Source: Thiolapillus brandeum (GTDB taxonomy: Bacteria > Pseudomonadota > Gammaproteobacteria > Chromatiales > Chromatiaceae). From it: DNA of 64,000 nucleotides. A program made the translations under genes and the position numbers. Every line of letters begins with the position of its first letter. Positions within the stretch are counted from its first letter, which is position 1. The stretch spans positions 2,418,001 to 2,482,000 of the forward strand of contig NZ_AP012273.1 in NCBI RefSeq assembly GCF_000828615.1, in the 5' to 3' direction. Shown here one piece after another: positions 11,673-19,055 of this stretch. The notes beneath the pieces were generated by a model. That model made no database searches, was not told the DNA's origin, and was given only the letters and a program-made list of their open reading frames with translations.

Positions 11673-12257
11673 TCAGTGCAGGTCATTTCGCAAGGAAGCC
11701 GCCGTAACCGCGGGAATGGGAGATAGGGTGACATTGAATTCTGCATGATCGATACCCATGCTGATGTCTGCGCCCTGCTTTGCCGCCTCGACCATCTCAT
11801 CCGTCAGTTCAAAACGCATGAAATGTACGCTGGAAGTCTTTTCTTCTGTCGTACGTTCAAGGTCTTCATTGCTGATGGGATACACTTTTTCCAGATCGCC
11901 CACACGCACCCAGACCTTGTCCTCGATACCCTTGAGGCGGGCCAGCATTTCCTTGCGCTCTTCCACATCCGGGTATTCAATCATGAAGGTTGCCTTCCAG
12001 TTGCTGCCGTCAGGAATAAGGGGATTGTAGGTGTCCAGCTCTTCCTGGATGCCAGCTGCGTCAAAGATCTTTTCAATGCGCAGCATTTCCTGGATCTGGT
12101 ATTGCATGGTGAGGCGATCTTCGAAATACAGGGCCGCATGCTCATCCAGGCGTACCAGGCGGTTCTTCTTGTGCGCCATGACCTGCTCCCGGAACCCGGG
12201 ACGTGCCTGGTCATATTCTTCCAGGCTCATCAGGTCTTCACGTTTCAGCTTGCTCAT
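11673..12257 (-). CDS. DUF3501 family protein
   Basis: 194 residues, the whole family length. It opens KREDLMSLEEYDQARPGFR, carries HKKNRLVRLDEHAALYFEDR and LTMQYQIQEMLRIEKIF, and ends in a beta-rich FELTDEMV / MGIDHAEFN region. No enzymatic motif is visible. The family is known mainly from its gene order: it follows a rubrerythrin and a GlpC-like Fe-S protein, as here (21 bp after the Fe-S gene). A part in peroxide or redox handling is inferred from that context only. Confidence 0.9.
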   Translation of the reverse strand: MSKLKREDLMSLEEYDQARPGFREQVMAHKKNRLVRLDEHAALYFEDRLTMQYQIQEMLRIEKIFDAAGIQEELDTYNPLIPDGSNWKATFMIEYPDVEERKEMLARLKGIEDKVWVRVGDLEKVYPISNEDLERTTEEKTSSVHFMRFELTDEMVEAAKQGADISMGIDHAEFNVTLSPIPAVTAASLRNDLH

Positions 12258-12278: not shown

Positions 12279-13607
12279 TCAGATGCCGTAGGCACGGCGC
12301 AGCAGTTTCATGGGATGTTCCGCCGCCAGACCATTGTCCAGGGCATGGGCAATATGATGCCCGGCCATCACACAGTCGCTGGTGAGGTGATCGGGCTCGA
12401 ACTGCTGCACCTTCCGGGCCACGGGGCGCACCAGTTTCATGGAAATGGCATGAAATTCCTTCTTCACCGCATAGGTGCCATCATGGCCCGAACAGCGCTC
12501 GATGGCCTGTACTTCCGTATCCGGCACCAGTTGCAGCAGTTCCCGGGTCTTGTTGCCGATGCGCTGCACCCGCTGATGGCAGGCGACGTGGTAAGACACC
12601 TTGCCCAGGGAATTCTTGAAATCCGTGTTCAGCTTGCCCGCCTTGTGCCGCAACATAAGGTACTCAAAGGGATCATAGATATGATCCCGCACCTTCAGCA
12701 CTTCCTCGTCATCGGGAAACATCAGGGGCAGTTCCTGTTTGAACATGAGTACGCAGGACGGAATGGGTGCAACAATATCCCAGCCGTTATCGATCATCTT
12801 CGCCAGTTGGGGAATGTTCACCTCCTTGGCTTTGGCAACTGCTTCCAGGTCGCCCAGCTCCAGCTTGGGCATGCCGCAGCAGCGCTCTTTCTCCGCGATA
12901 GTCACGGGAATCCCGTTGTGCTCGAACACTGCGGCCAGATCCTCGCCGATATCCGGCTGATTGTTGTTGCCGTAACAGGTGGCGAACAGGGCCACTTTTC
13001 CTGTGGTTGGACCCGCGGCTTCTCCCCGTGCATCGGGCTGGGGCTGGATGCGCTTGCGCAGGGGCTTGCTGGTGTATTTGGGAATCACGGCATCATGATC
13101 CACGCCCAGGGTGTTTTCCAGCAGCTTGCGGAATCCCGGGTTGGCGTTCATGGCATTGACCACACCGGCAACGATGGGAATACCCGCCAGTTTTGGCACG
13201 GTATCCGTCGCGGACAGGATCCTGTCACGGGTTTTGGCGCCATGATTCTTATAATGCACCGCCTTGGCCTGGAGCATCAGGTGCGGGAAATCGATATTCC
13301 ACTCGTGGGGCGGCACATAGGGGCATTTGGTCAGGAAGCACAGATCACAGAGATAGCAGTGATCCACGACCTTCCAGTAATCTTTCTTGTCCACACCATC
13401 CACTTCCATGGTGTCAGACTCATCAACCAGATCGAAAAGGGTGGGAAAGGCGTGGCAGAGGCTGACACAACGACGGCAGCCGTGACAGATGTCGAACACC
13501 CGTTCCATTTCCGTCAGCAGTTTTTCCTCGTCATAGAAATCCGGATTCTTCCAGTCCAGTGCATGCCGGGTAGGCGCTTCCAGACTGCCTTCACGTCTTT
13601 CACTCAT
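12279..13607 (-). CDS. GlpC/heterodisulfide-reductase-like Fe-S oxidoreductase
   Basis: 442 residues. The N-terminal third holds two ferredoxin-type cluster motifs, CHGCRRCVSLC and CYLCDLCFLTKC, for two [4Fe-4S] clusters. The C-terminal half has two cysteine-rich CCG-type modules: ATCYGNNN...ERCCGMP and VACHQRVQ...ERCSGHDG. The second lacks the double cysteine of the classical CCG motif. The family passes electrons between a flavin or quinone partner and a target; the partner here is likely the neighbouring rubrerythrin. It has a good ribosome site (GGAGGAGACAGAAG before ATG). A hairpin separates it from rubrerythrin and may lower its expression relative to that gene. Confidence 0.88.
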   Translation of the reverse strand: MSERREGSLEAPTRHALDWKNPDFYDEEKLLTEMERVFDICHGCRRCVSLCHAFPTLFDLVDESDTMEVDGVDKKDYWKVVDHCYLCDLCFLTKCPYVPPHEWNIDFPHLMLQAKAVHYKNHGAKTRDRILSATDTVPKLAGIPIVAGVVNAMNANPGFRKLLENTLGVDHDAVIPKYTSKPLRKRIQPQPDARGEAAGPTTGKVALFATCYGNNNQPDIGEDLAAVFEHNGIPVTIAEKERCCGMPKLELGDLEAVAKAKEVNIPQLAKMIDNGWDIVAPIPSCVLMFKQELPLMFPDDEEVLKVRDHIYDPFEYLMLRHKAGKLNTDFKNSLGKVSYHVACHQRVQRIGNKTRELLQLVPDTEVQAIERCSGHDGTYAVKKEFHAISMKLVRPVARKVQQFEPDHLTSDCVMAGHHIAHALDNGLAAEHPMKLLRRAYGI

Positions 13608-13662: not shown

Positions 13663-14082
13663 TCAGCTATCCAGGGCGTCCAGGGCCTTCTGGAAACGAT
13701 TGGCATGAGAGCGCTCAGCCTTGGCCAGGGTCTCGAACCAGTCGGCAATCTCGTCAAAGCCTTCGTCACGGGCATCCTTGGCCATGCCGGGGTACATATC
13801 GGTGTACTCGTGGGTTTCACCGGCAATGGCTGCTTTCAGATTGTCGGCAGTACCACCAATGGGCAGGCCAGTGGCAGGATCACCCACTTCTTCCAGGTAT
13901 TCCAGGTGGCCGTGAGCATGGCCGGTCTCGCCTTCTGCGGTAGAGCGGAACACGGCGGCCACATCGTTGTAGCCTTCCACGTCGGCTTTTGCCGCGAAGT
14001 ACAGATAACGGCGGTTAGCCTGGGATTCGCCGGCAAAGGCGTCTTTCAGATGTTGCTCGGTCTTTGAACCTTTGAGTGACAT
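13663..14082 (-). CDS. Rubrerythrin (ferritin-like diiron domain only)
   Basis: 139 residues from the ATG at 14080-14082, preceded by AGGAGA. It is a four-helix diiron protein with the expected ligands: Glu19, Glu52-x2-His55, Glu89, Glu92 and Glu123-x2-His126. There is no C-terminal rubredoxin domain, so the electron donor must be separate; the Fe-S oxidoreductase downstream is the natural candidate. Rubrerythrins reduce hydrogen peroxide to water in the cytoplasm. An OxyR-type operator and promoter lie upstream, and oxyR itself is the next gene, so peroxide induction is likely. The longer in-frame extension to 14229 runs over the promoter and is not used. Confidence 0.92.
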
Positions 14083-14185
14083 GTCAGTTCTCCTTTCTTG
14101 GTTTATTGGAAACAGAAAAAGCCGCCCGGAGATCTCCCGGCGGGTGTTTTCCCATTTCGGAATGGTCTCGCCATCCTCGAAAGGA

Positions 14186-14214
14186 ACTATAGTTGAGGGG
14201 GGAAATATAATTGA
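14186..14214 (-). promoter_or_regulatory. Putative rubrerythrin promoter
   Basis: On the minus strand, -10 TATAGT (14191-14186) with a 17-bp spacer to a weak -35 TCAATT (14214-14209). A good -10 with a poor -35 right beside an OxyR-type operator is the design of an activator-dependent promoter. The start codon is about 100 bp downstream. Confidence 0.55.
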
Positions 14215-14215
14215 A

Positions 14216-14252
14216 ATTGTTTGTTGCAATACCCTTGATAGGCATTGCCTAT
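14216..14252. promoter_or_regulatory. OxyR-type operator (four spaced tetranucleotides)
   Basis: Reads ATTG-N7-CAAT-N7-ATAG-N7-CTAT. The OxyR consensus is four elements ATAG-N7-CTAT-N7-ATAG-N7-CTAT; here the second pair matches perfectly and each element of the first pair matches 3 of 4, with exact 7-bp spacing throughout. It ends 1 bp short of the -35 hexamer, the position from which OxyR activates. Confidence 0.72.
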
Positions 14253-14348
14253 GACCGAATGATTCGGAACCGGCTTCAGGGCCCCTCTATTCATTCTGTT
14301 TGAGCAGATCTGTGTTTGAGGAGATCAAGAACAAGGCGAAGATCGCAG

Positions 14349-14366
14349 CAGATAGTAGACTATCTG
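14349..14366. repeat. 18-bp palindrome downstream of oxyR
   Basis: CAGATAGT-AG-ACTATCTG, a perfect 8-bp inverted repeat with a 2-bp centre. It is 70 bp past the oxyR stop codon. It could be a regulator site, part of a dispersed repeat, or a weak hairpin end; there is no T-run. Confidence 0.5.
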
Positions 14367-14437
14367 TAAGATGTTCAACGAAGTTATTGAGTTTCTCAAG
14401 CGCAGAGATGCCAGACATGAATTATTAGAGATGCCCT

Positions 14438-15367
14438 TCAGTCCAGATGCTTGATACAGCTGAGCTTGCTGGCATGCACTGCCTGGCGCAGTACATCGAT
14501 GGCCTGGGGGCGGGGAAAACTCTTGCGCCAGGCCAGGGCAACTACACGACTGGGATCGGCATCCTGGAAGCGCTTGATGCTCACCAGGCGCTGAGAGAAG
14601 CGATCGGCTCCGGCAGCGGAACAGGGCAGAATGGTGACTCCCATGCCACTGGCCACCATATAGCGGATGGTTTCCAGGGAGCTGCCTTCCAGATCGGCCA
14701 GCATATCCCCCTCTGCCAGGTTGCGCTTGCGCAGGCAGTCCGGACAGATTTCCAGCACCTGATCCCGAAAACAATGTCCGGTTCCCAAAAGCAGTACTTT
14801 TTCCTGGCTGATGTCTTCGATACTTAGCCTGTCGCGCTGGTTCAAAGGGTGGGAACCCGGCACCAGGGCGACGAAATGCTCCTCGTACAGAGGCACAGTG
14901 AGAATGCCATGTTCCTCGAAAGGCAGAGAGATGAGTATCGCATCCACCTCGCCCTGCTTGAGCTTTTCCGCCAGCACATGAGTGTAGTTTTCCTCGATCA
15001 CCAGGGGCATCTGCGGGGCGCGCTGGGCCAATTCGCTGATCAGGTGGGGAAACAGGTAGGGCCCAATGGTGTAAATGGCACCAATACGCAGGGGTGCCGC
15101 CAACTGATCCCGGCCATGCTCGACGATTTCCCTGATCACGCCTGCTTCTTCCAGTACCCGTTGAGCCTGGGTCACCACCTGCTCACCCACGGGAGTGACC
15201 GTGACCTCTCCCTGGCGCCGCTCGAACAGTTCCACCCCCAGTTCCCGCTCCAGCTTGCGCACCGCCACACTCAGAGTGGGCTGGCTGATGAAACAGGCTT
15301 CAGCCGCCCTGCCAAAATGCCTGGCCCGGGCTACTGCAACAATGTATTTCAGTTCGTTCAGGGTCAT
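14438..15367 (-). CDS. oxyR: Hydrogen-peroxide-sensing regulator OxyR
   Basis: 309 residues, LysR type. The N-terminal helix-turn-helix reads FGRAAEACFISQPTLSVAVR. The redox pair is in GTGHCFRDQVLEICPDC, and by my count the cysteines fall at 199 and 208, the same numbers as in E. coli OxyR; peroxide forms a disulfide between them and activates the protein. It starts 12 bp after dctM, so it probably shares the TRAP operon transcript, which is unusual. The next gene downstream on the strand, rubrerythrin, has a matching operator and is the likely local target. Confidence 0.92.
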   Translation of the reverse strand: MTLNELKYIVAVARARHFGRAAEACFISQPTLSVAVRKLERELGVELFERRQGEVTVTPVGEQVVTQAQRVLEEAGVIREIVEHGRDQLAAPLRIGAIYTIGPYLFPHLISELAQRAPQMPLVIEENYTHVLAEKLKQGEVDAILISLPFEEHGILTVPLYEEHFVALVPGSHPLNQRDRLSIEDISQEKVLLLGTGHCFRDQVLEICPDCLRKRNLAEGDMLADLEGSSLETIRYMVASGMGVTILPCSAAGADRFSQRLVSIKRFQDADPSRVVALAWRKSFPRPQAIDVLRQAVHASKLSCIKHLD

Positions 15368-18608: not shown

Positions 18609-19055
18609 ATGCTGTCCTACGACGAACTCCACGCCCAGAACGACCACATCACTGAACTCACCAATACTCTTCGACTGCTGCTTACCGACCGCTTGCTATG
18701 CGATTCGCATATCACCGCAGAGCTGTTTTGCCGCTACGTGGATGCAGTCAAGGAACATCTGGAAATTACGGATAAAAAGCTTTATACACAAATGCTCACC
18801 AGCGCCGATCAACAGGTCACCACTGTAGCCAATCGCTTCATGGGCGGTTCCAAGGAGATCAAACGCATCTTCAACGACTTCGTAAAGAAGTGGTGCAACA
18901 TGAAAAAGCAACAGCTCATGGTAGCGGACTATGAGGAATTCGCCCGCATCACCGACGGTATGTTCGATATGGTTCTGGATCGCATACAGGACGAGGTGGA
19001 ACACCTCTATCCCATGCTACGCAAAGTTCGCGGCGACGACAAATACGCCGCCTGA
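18609..19055 (+). CDS. Hemerythrin-like protein
   Basis: 148 residues, four-helix bundle pattern, no signal peptide. The family has a helix with NDHITELTN, a VDAVKEHLEITDKKLYTQML helix and a C-terminal DRIQDEVEHLYPMLRKV helix, supplying His and Glu residues for an oxo-bridged di-iron site. I could not align all the canonical HxxxE and HxxxD ligands with certainty. Such proteins bind O2 or NO or hold iron. It is monocistronic and preceded by GAGGAAAAT. Its position near rubrerythrin and an oxygen-type regulator elsewhere in the window fits a role in oxygen or nitric-oxide handling. Confidence 0.75.
   Translation: MLSYDELHAQNDHITELTNTLRLLLTDRLLCDSHITAELFCRYVDAVKEHLEITDKKLYTQMLTSADQQVTTVANRFMGGSKEIKRIFNDFVKKWCNMKKQQLMVADYEEFARITDGMFDMVLDRIQDEVEHLYPMLRKVRGDDKYAA

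Follow-up and report, generated by a model that had tools for sequence, protein, structure and literature searches.

A predicted OxyR operator in front of an aerobic-type rubrerythrin operon in Thiolapillus brandeum

Known OxyR operators and rubrerythrin clusters

The OxyR operators described in E. coli and P. aeruginosa have the arrangement ATAG-N7-CTAT-N7-ATAG-N7-CTAT, and oxidised OxyR is described, in the available text of PMC5002191, as binding four ATAGnt repeats in four contiguous major grooves. The site considered here lies in a 64,000-nucleotide stretch of Thiolapillus brandeum DNA (the window, by which we mean that whole stretch), and it has the same spacing and element sequence as those operators. 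It differs from them in that its promoter-proximal half reads ATTG/CAAT, in that its target is a rubrerythrin operon, and in that it lies downstream of oxyR and is not autoregulatory. In agreement with the model operator it matches 14 of 16 letters, versus 9–13 of 16 for the P. aeruginosa candidate sites whose testing is reported in the available part of PMC5720770.

Several described systems come close on the side of the target. The aerobic-type cluster rbr–RFO–DUF3501, as set out in passages of PMC5114695, consists of the same three genes, likewise with the rubredoxin domain absent; the main text of that paper contains none of the terms OxyR, PerR, LysR or regulat*. In Sideroxydans lithotrophicus, oxyR stands beside rbr–RFO–DUF3501–dps, the same neighbourhood link as here, although the accessible part of that report (PMC7852563) gives no operator, promoter or regulon. 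The perR–rbr operons of delta-proteobacteria similarly place rubrerythrin under a predicted peroxide sensor, but there, according to the excerpted text of PMC545781, the sensor is PerR, of the Fur family, and these bacteria are said to have no E. coli-type OxyR. Bacteroides counts two rubrerythrins among its scavengers of H2O2 and has an OxyR that responds to aeration, with OxyR control of these rubrerythrins not stated in the passages available (PMC5210497). In Burkholderia pseudomallei, a rubrerythrin gene and its neighbours depend on sigma-E under oxidative stress, as excerpts of PMC4175613 report.

Our literature search, which covered open-licence papers by title, start of abstract and passages, recognised no paper on an OxyR operator before an aerobic rbr operon, and the main text of PMC4136832, on T. 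brandeum, contains no mention of catalase, rubrerythrin, peroxidase or oxidative stress. Already known, then, are OxyR operators of such form, the aerobic-type rbr, and, from the part of PMC7852563 at hand, oxyR–rbr clustering in Sideroxydans. New here are the operator, a predicted regulon, and a TTAGA-N5-TCTAA palindrome.

The predicted operator, its promoter and its neighbours

The operator is placed between oxyR and rbr, both on the minus strand, with RFO and DUF3501 next after rbr (Table 1); it looks as if it precedes a three-gene operon, rbr–RFO–DUF3501, that would be transcribed as a unit. Residues 1–298 of the regulator match chain 4x6g (molecule name OxyR; E = 2.9e-104), the best solved match and a nearly full-length one, which we take to be OxyR from P. 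aeruginosa. Against the NCBIfam equivalog for the E. coli-type protein (NF008361) the score is 232.8 bits, short of the 329-bit cut-off and still the best NCBIfam match of this protein. The redox cysteine pair is present, and on this neighbouring gene the preliminary description was correct. Its remark that rubrerythrin is usually seen as an enzyme of anaerobes does not suit this locus. The protein has a rubrerythrin domain without a rubredoxin domain and is accompanied by RFO and DUF3501, the combination by which the available text of PMC5114695 defines the aerobic-type lineage, and it reaches only 137.7 of the 200 bits that the classical NCBIfam model NF045767 requires (profile positions 3–145 of 194).

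Table 1. Features of the oxyR–rbr region, in window coordinates.
Feature	Position	Strand	Remarks
DUF3501 protein	11673..12257	-	E = 5.1e-73; same operon by arrangement
RFO, GlpC-like Fe-S oxidoreductase (CCG domain)	12279..13607	-	Same operon by arrangement
rbr, aerobic-type rubrerythrin	13663..14082	-	139 aa; rubredoxin domain not found in Pfam scan
Stem-loop	14159..14177	-	Near predicted 5' end of rbr transcript; folds; covariation weak
-10 hexamer TATAGT	14186..14191	-	24 bp past operator, 17 bp past -35
Weak -35 hexamer TCAATT	14209..14214	-	14214-14209 in rbr direction; 1 bp downstream of operator
Predicted OxyR operator	14216..14252	-	ATAG 14252-14249, CTAT 14241-14238, ATTG 14230-14227, CAAT 14219-14216; gaps 7 bp
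Dispersed repeat copy	14262..14432		Between oxyR and operator
oxyR, OxyR-type LysR regulator	14438..15367	-	Cys199 and Cys208; closest solved sequence chain 4x6g

Counting its own position and partial copies, the repeat between oxyR and the operator matches at 17 places in the genome; L009 and L012, which are near relatives, have almost no room for it, as about 14 bp separate the end of their oxyR from the operator. Elsewhere in the genome a second rubrerythrin-like gene, 47% identical, is found at G000:C1:401828-402250, and the window also encodes a small hemerythrin-domain protein (18609-19055).

On the plus strand, positions 14216-14252 read ATTG (14216-14219), CAAT (14227-14230), ATAG (14238-14241) and CTAT (14249-14252), with N7 between neighbours. 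Four ATAG-like elements with exact 7-bp gaps are thus present, with 14 of 16 letters equal to ATAG-CTAT-ATAG-CTAT, and read toward rbr they run ATAG-CTAT-ATTG-CAAT, followed by 1 bp, TCAATT, 17 bp and TATAGT. The preliminary description had placed the elements and gaps, the weak TCAATT and the good TATAGT exactly so, and all of them stand. The oxyR stop codon precedes the site, which is why we rejected a role for it in OxyR autoregulation.

How far could so short a pattern arise by accident? The pattern as written has a single exact match in the 3.15-Mb genome, which is the operator, and the runner-up has two mismatches; when the elements are widened to ATWG/CWAT the operator is again the best match, with a runner-up at one mismatch. 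Control patterns gave 1 and 4 matches versus 8 and 8 for the operator patterns in the first scan, and 17 and 11 versus 14 and 15 in the second. Since the controls are as common as the lower-scoring matches, only the top of these lists carries weight. A chance resemblance in an AT-rich promoter could appeal to this and to the shortness of the four-letter elements. But when the 300-bp upstream region is dinucleotide-shuffled 200 times, the operator score is never equalled (row L010), and the spacing controls, profile search, -10 spacing and recurrence before scavenger genes described below contradict it as well. We have therefore rejected chance, to which we give next to no credence.

The promoter itself fits activation. 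An automatic sigma-70 scan did not list the claimed rbr promoter, its sole match being on the other strand, because the -35 is too poor. A poor -35 is compatible with an activator-dependent promoter, yet it is no evidence for one. The -10 reads TATAGT or TATATT in 12 loci of the genus (L009–L020). Among 34 promoters (the non-palindrome loci scoring at least 13, as defined below), a best -10 hexamer (4 or more of 6 letters) falls 23–24 bp past the site in 25, whereas shuffles average 3.3 and 0 of 2000 equal that count; the -10 played no part in choosing these loci, although the loci are related and 12 of the 34 come from one genus. The predicted operator abuts the weak -35 of a presumably activatable sigma-70 promoter, 1 bp away, at a near-constant distance from the -10.

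This placement bears on the possibility that OxyR does bind here and in its reduced form acts chiefly to repress rbr, or that peroxide control is minor relative to another signal. The four-element arrangement alone does not separate activator from repressor, and OxyR of Shewanella, in the text available from PMC6416212, regulates scavengers in both redox states. However, the operator is just upstream of a poor -35, and its spacing to the -10 is nearly constant across the promoters of rbr, catalase and peroxiredoxin genes; this is where an activator would sit, and it is not over the start site. We consider predominant repression, or a minor role for peroxide, unlikely, and favor activation by oxidised OxyR.

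Downstream of the promoter, most leaders of the 22 OxyR-type loci contain a stem-loop when folded and judged by eye, with differing sequences; covariation is weak in the one alignment tried. The rbr leader also has a long palindrome followed by T residues (14116-14149) that resembles an intrinsic terminator. At this place L009 and L012 have a hairpin and lack the T run.

Conservation of the site and an alternative palindrome in relatives

Rubrerythrin matches at 1e-50 occur in 158 of 369 genomes of the class. We examined 138 rbr loci, a few genomes giving two: 58 from similarity searches and 80 fetched by place. This is a ranked and not a random sample, leaving out lower-ranking matches and some listed ones that were near contig ends or nearly identical to others.

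Under a strict criterion (ATAG/CTAT letters plus shuffles), oxyR stands directly upstream with a site in 17 loci and without one in 5; 9 loci have a site without adjacent oxyR, 85 only the TTAGA-N5-TCTAA palindrome, 1 both site and palindrome, and 21 neither. Four of the five linked misses (L046, L047, L053 and L097) match 11 of 16 strict letters with shuffle fractions of 0.06–0.23, and their elements are ATTG/CAAT, as in the second half of the site in the window. We widened the letters to ATWG/CWAT post hoc, after noticing these elements. Rescored in this way, 14 of the 22 linked loci match 16 of 16 letters, 4 match 15, 3 match 14, and 1 (L118) matches 12. Thus, 21 of 22 score at least 14 with 7-7-7 spacing, spread over five family labels (f1, f16, f44, f49 and f58). 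In locus L037 the site is far upstream (-292). With the same letters, 24 other spacings reach 14 in only 5 of 528 tests on linked loci. The preliminary description had staked its reading on conservation of the tetranucleotide spacing in orthologous promoters, which these counts bear out. Loci with neither adjacent oxyR nor palindrome reach 14 in 6 of 30 cases; for palindrome loci, 0 of 86 reach 13 and 8 of 86 reach 12. In an alignment of 21 sites, conservation reaches 90% or more in 13 of 16 element columns versus 1 of 21 spacer columns, a figure that is partly circular because distant sites were picked by those letters.

Starting from the regulator gives a similar picture. Among 41 named OxyR records, the fetched stretch lacks rbr in 24. 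In 15 others rbr comes immediately after oxyR and has a site scoring 14–16, and in the remaining 2 it is elsewhere nearby, with sites scoring 14 and 12; 11 of these 15 share their contigs with loci counted above. All 39 OxyR rows associated with rbr retain the two redox cysteines; 11 named rows among them repeat contigs of others. In a separate observation, 16 OxyR relatives (L221–L225, L227–L233, L235, L240, L243 and L244) keep Cys199 and have another residue or a gap at Cys208. They mostly carry Thiomicrorhabdus, Thiomicrospira or Hydrogenovibrio labels, with no rbr in the fetched stretch.

The palindrome, TTAGA-N5-TCTAA (TTTAGAnnnnnTCTAAA), precedes rbr with 9 or 10 of 10 letters in 86 of the 138 loci (e.g. 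L028, L033, L049 and L066), mostly 50–130 bp ahead of the start codon; 24 of 2760 shuffles reach that score. It never accompanies an OxyR site scoring at least 13 on ATWG/CWAT letters, the one overlap arising under the looser rule of strict letters plus shuffles. In its exact form with one letter added on each side, it has a single occurrence apiece in 6 of 8 single-contig genomes searched, as compared with one in each of 2 for a control pattern. Five of these occurrences are at rbr and one is before a di-haem cytochrome c peroxidase gene (L203). This second target suggests that the palindrome is read by a peroxide-type regulator.

Which protein might do so was approached in two ways. First, no Fur-type (PerR-like) gene was found beside rbr among 1123 open frames of the 138 loci, judged by sequence signatures. 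Second, FUR-family matches were counted in 24 genomes, not all of them palindrome-type: one match in 3 genomes, two in 14, and three or four in 7. The window's genome has two, as do several palindrome genomes. Because many genomes have only one or two, a third Fur-type protein cannot read the palindrome in all of them, and we discarded it as a general reader. In 41 of the 86 palindrome loci an upstream open frame belongs to one family, presumably ispA from its sequence, and is divergent in the 8 members shown.

We lean toward the view that, in this class of bacteria, OxyR (with its operator and often an adjacent oxyR) and the palindrome, the latter close to the start codon and with a probably repressor-type regulator, are two alternative and nearly mutually exclusive peroxide switches of the aerobic rubrerythrin operon that were exchanged in the lineage of the window while the operon was kept.

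A predicted OxyR regulon and its place in peroxide defence

If the rbr site is an OxyR operator, similar sites should mark other peroxide genes. As our strongest test, we built a sequence-only profile (R1) from 21 rbr operators alone and ran it with an E cut-off of 5 on 15 genomes from the genus, scoring the best 150 first-look candidates in 10 of the 15, a search that is not exhaustive. It gave at least 30 matches, 12 of them rbr operators and 18 not. Among the matches listed, 14 of the 18 non-rbr ones, representing 13 promoters, precede scavenger genes: 3 catalase, 2 1-Cys peroxiredoxin, and 9 peroxiredoxin–glutaredoxin (8 promoters, two matches being identical and perhaps from duplicate contigs). 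Sites of this kind thus also mark other peroxide-defence genes of the genus. The E-values of these 14 range from 1.7e-4 to 4.6 and most are weak singly; it is the placement before scavenger genes, and not any single E-value, that counts. Five gene identities were confirmed with Pfam, those of the catalases by a catalase-family search, and the rest by evident sequence likeness.

Of the other four listed matches, one falls within an EAL/GGDEF gene, another precedes a gene for a sulfur globule protein, and two have no scavenger nearby. The first two are in the window's own genome and do not look like targets; the one at the sulfur globule protein gene (L278, G000:C1:2087271-2087296; E = 1.96) is weak and possibly due to chance.

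In the same genome, sites precede a 1-Cys peroxiredoxin gene (E = 0.063, genome position 218174-218210) and a peroxiredoxin–glutaredoxin hybrid gene (E = 3.4, genome position 97981-98017). Catalase occurs in 6 of the 15 genomes, and all six genes have an upstream site matching 12–15 of 16 letters, three of them at 12, a score also reached by 8 of 86 palindrome-type loci. In 15 of 16 of these scavenger promoters a best -10 starts exactly 23 bp past the site, tied with another place in 4. Judged from these sites, the same OxyR very probably drives the 1-Cys peroxiredoxin and the hybrid here and, in the sister species with a catalase, that gene too. The rbr site is then very probably one member of an OxyR regulon, to which binding and induction are ascribed by inference.

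Use of the site by another LysR-type regulator has in its favor that LysR-type sites have a common T-N11-A form and that six other genes in the genome match OxyR weakly. Yet no other protein of the genome exceeds 29% identity to OxyR, and the site goes with oxyR linkage (21 of 22) and marks peroxide genes. We regard a different LysR-type reader as very unlikely.

Taken together, the operator and promoter geometry, the redox cysteines, the conservation in relatives, and the recurrence before catalase and peroxiredoxin genes agree in supporting OxyR. We put the probability at roughly 0.88 that 14216-14252 is an OxyR operator from which OxyR would activate the rbr operon upon peroxide. The preliminary proposal of direct peroxide control of rubrerythrin as probable is supported, on the DNA-level grounds of geometry, the OxyR neighbour, conservation and recurrence; its scope has to be amended, in that the OxyR site before rbr stands but appears to serve an operon of three genes and belongs to a set of several such sites predicted in the genus.

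In the mechanism we propose, H2O2 would oxidise OxyR, forming the Cys199–Cys208 disulfide, a step that is established for OxyR and extrapolated to this protein. The oxidised tetramer would contact the four ATAG-like elements beside the poor -35 and help RNA polymerase initiate at the TATAGT -10, so that rbr–RFO–DUF3501 would be transcribed more strongly. RFO would probably feed electrons to the rubredoxin-less rubrerythrin, which in turn would reduce H2O2.

The host is probably a sulfur-oxidising vent bacterium. Family searches of its genome gave no match to KatG and none to catalase and, judged among rubrerythrin, peroxiredoxins, catalase and KatG, rubrerythrin and the peroxiredoxins are probably its main H2O2 scavengers. 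A close rbr is missing from 3 of the 15 genomes of the genus: G001, with the only KatG of the genus; G005, with a catalase; and G011 (89% complete), with neither. The pattern is suggestive, coming from incomplete assemblies, one with 8% contamination.

Control of the aerobic rubrerythrin cluster is not described in the literature searched, and the palindrome points to a peroxide-type regulator that we did not find named there. The predicted operator supplies a concrete, testable peroxide circuit for this cluster, in a genome without detected catalase or KatG, and the contrast between OxyR here and the palindrome in the majority of the relatives makes the replacement of a regulator at one operon testable.
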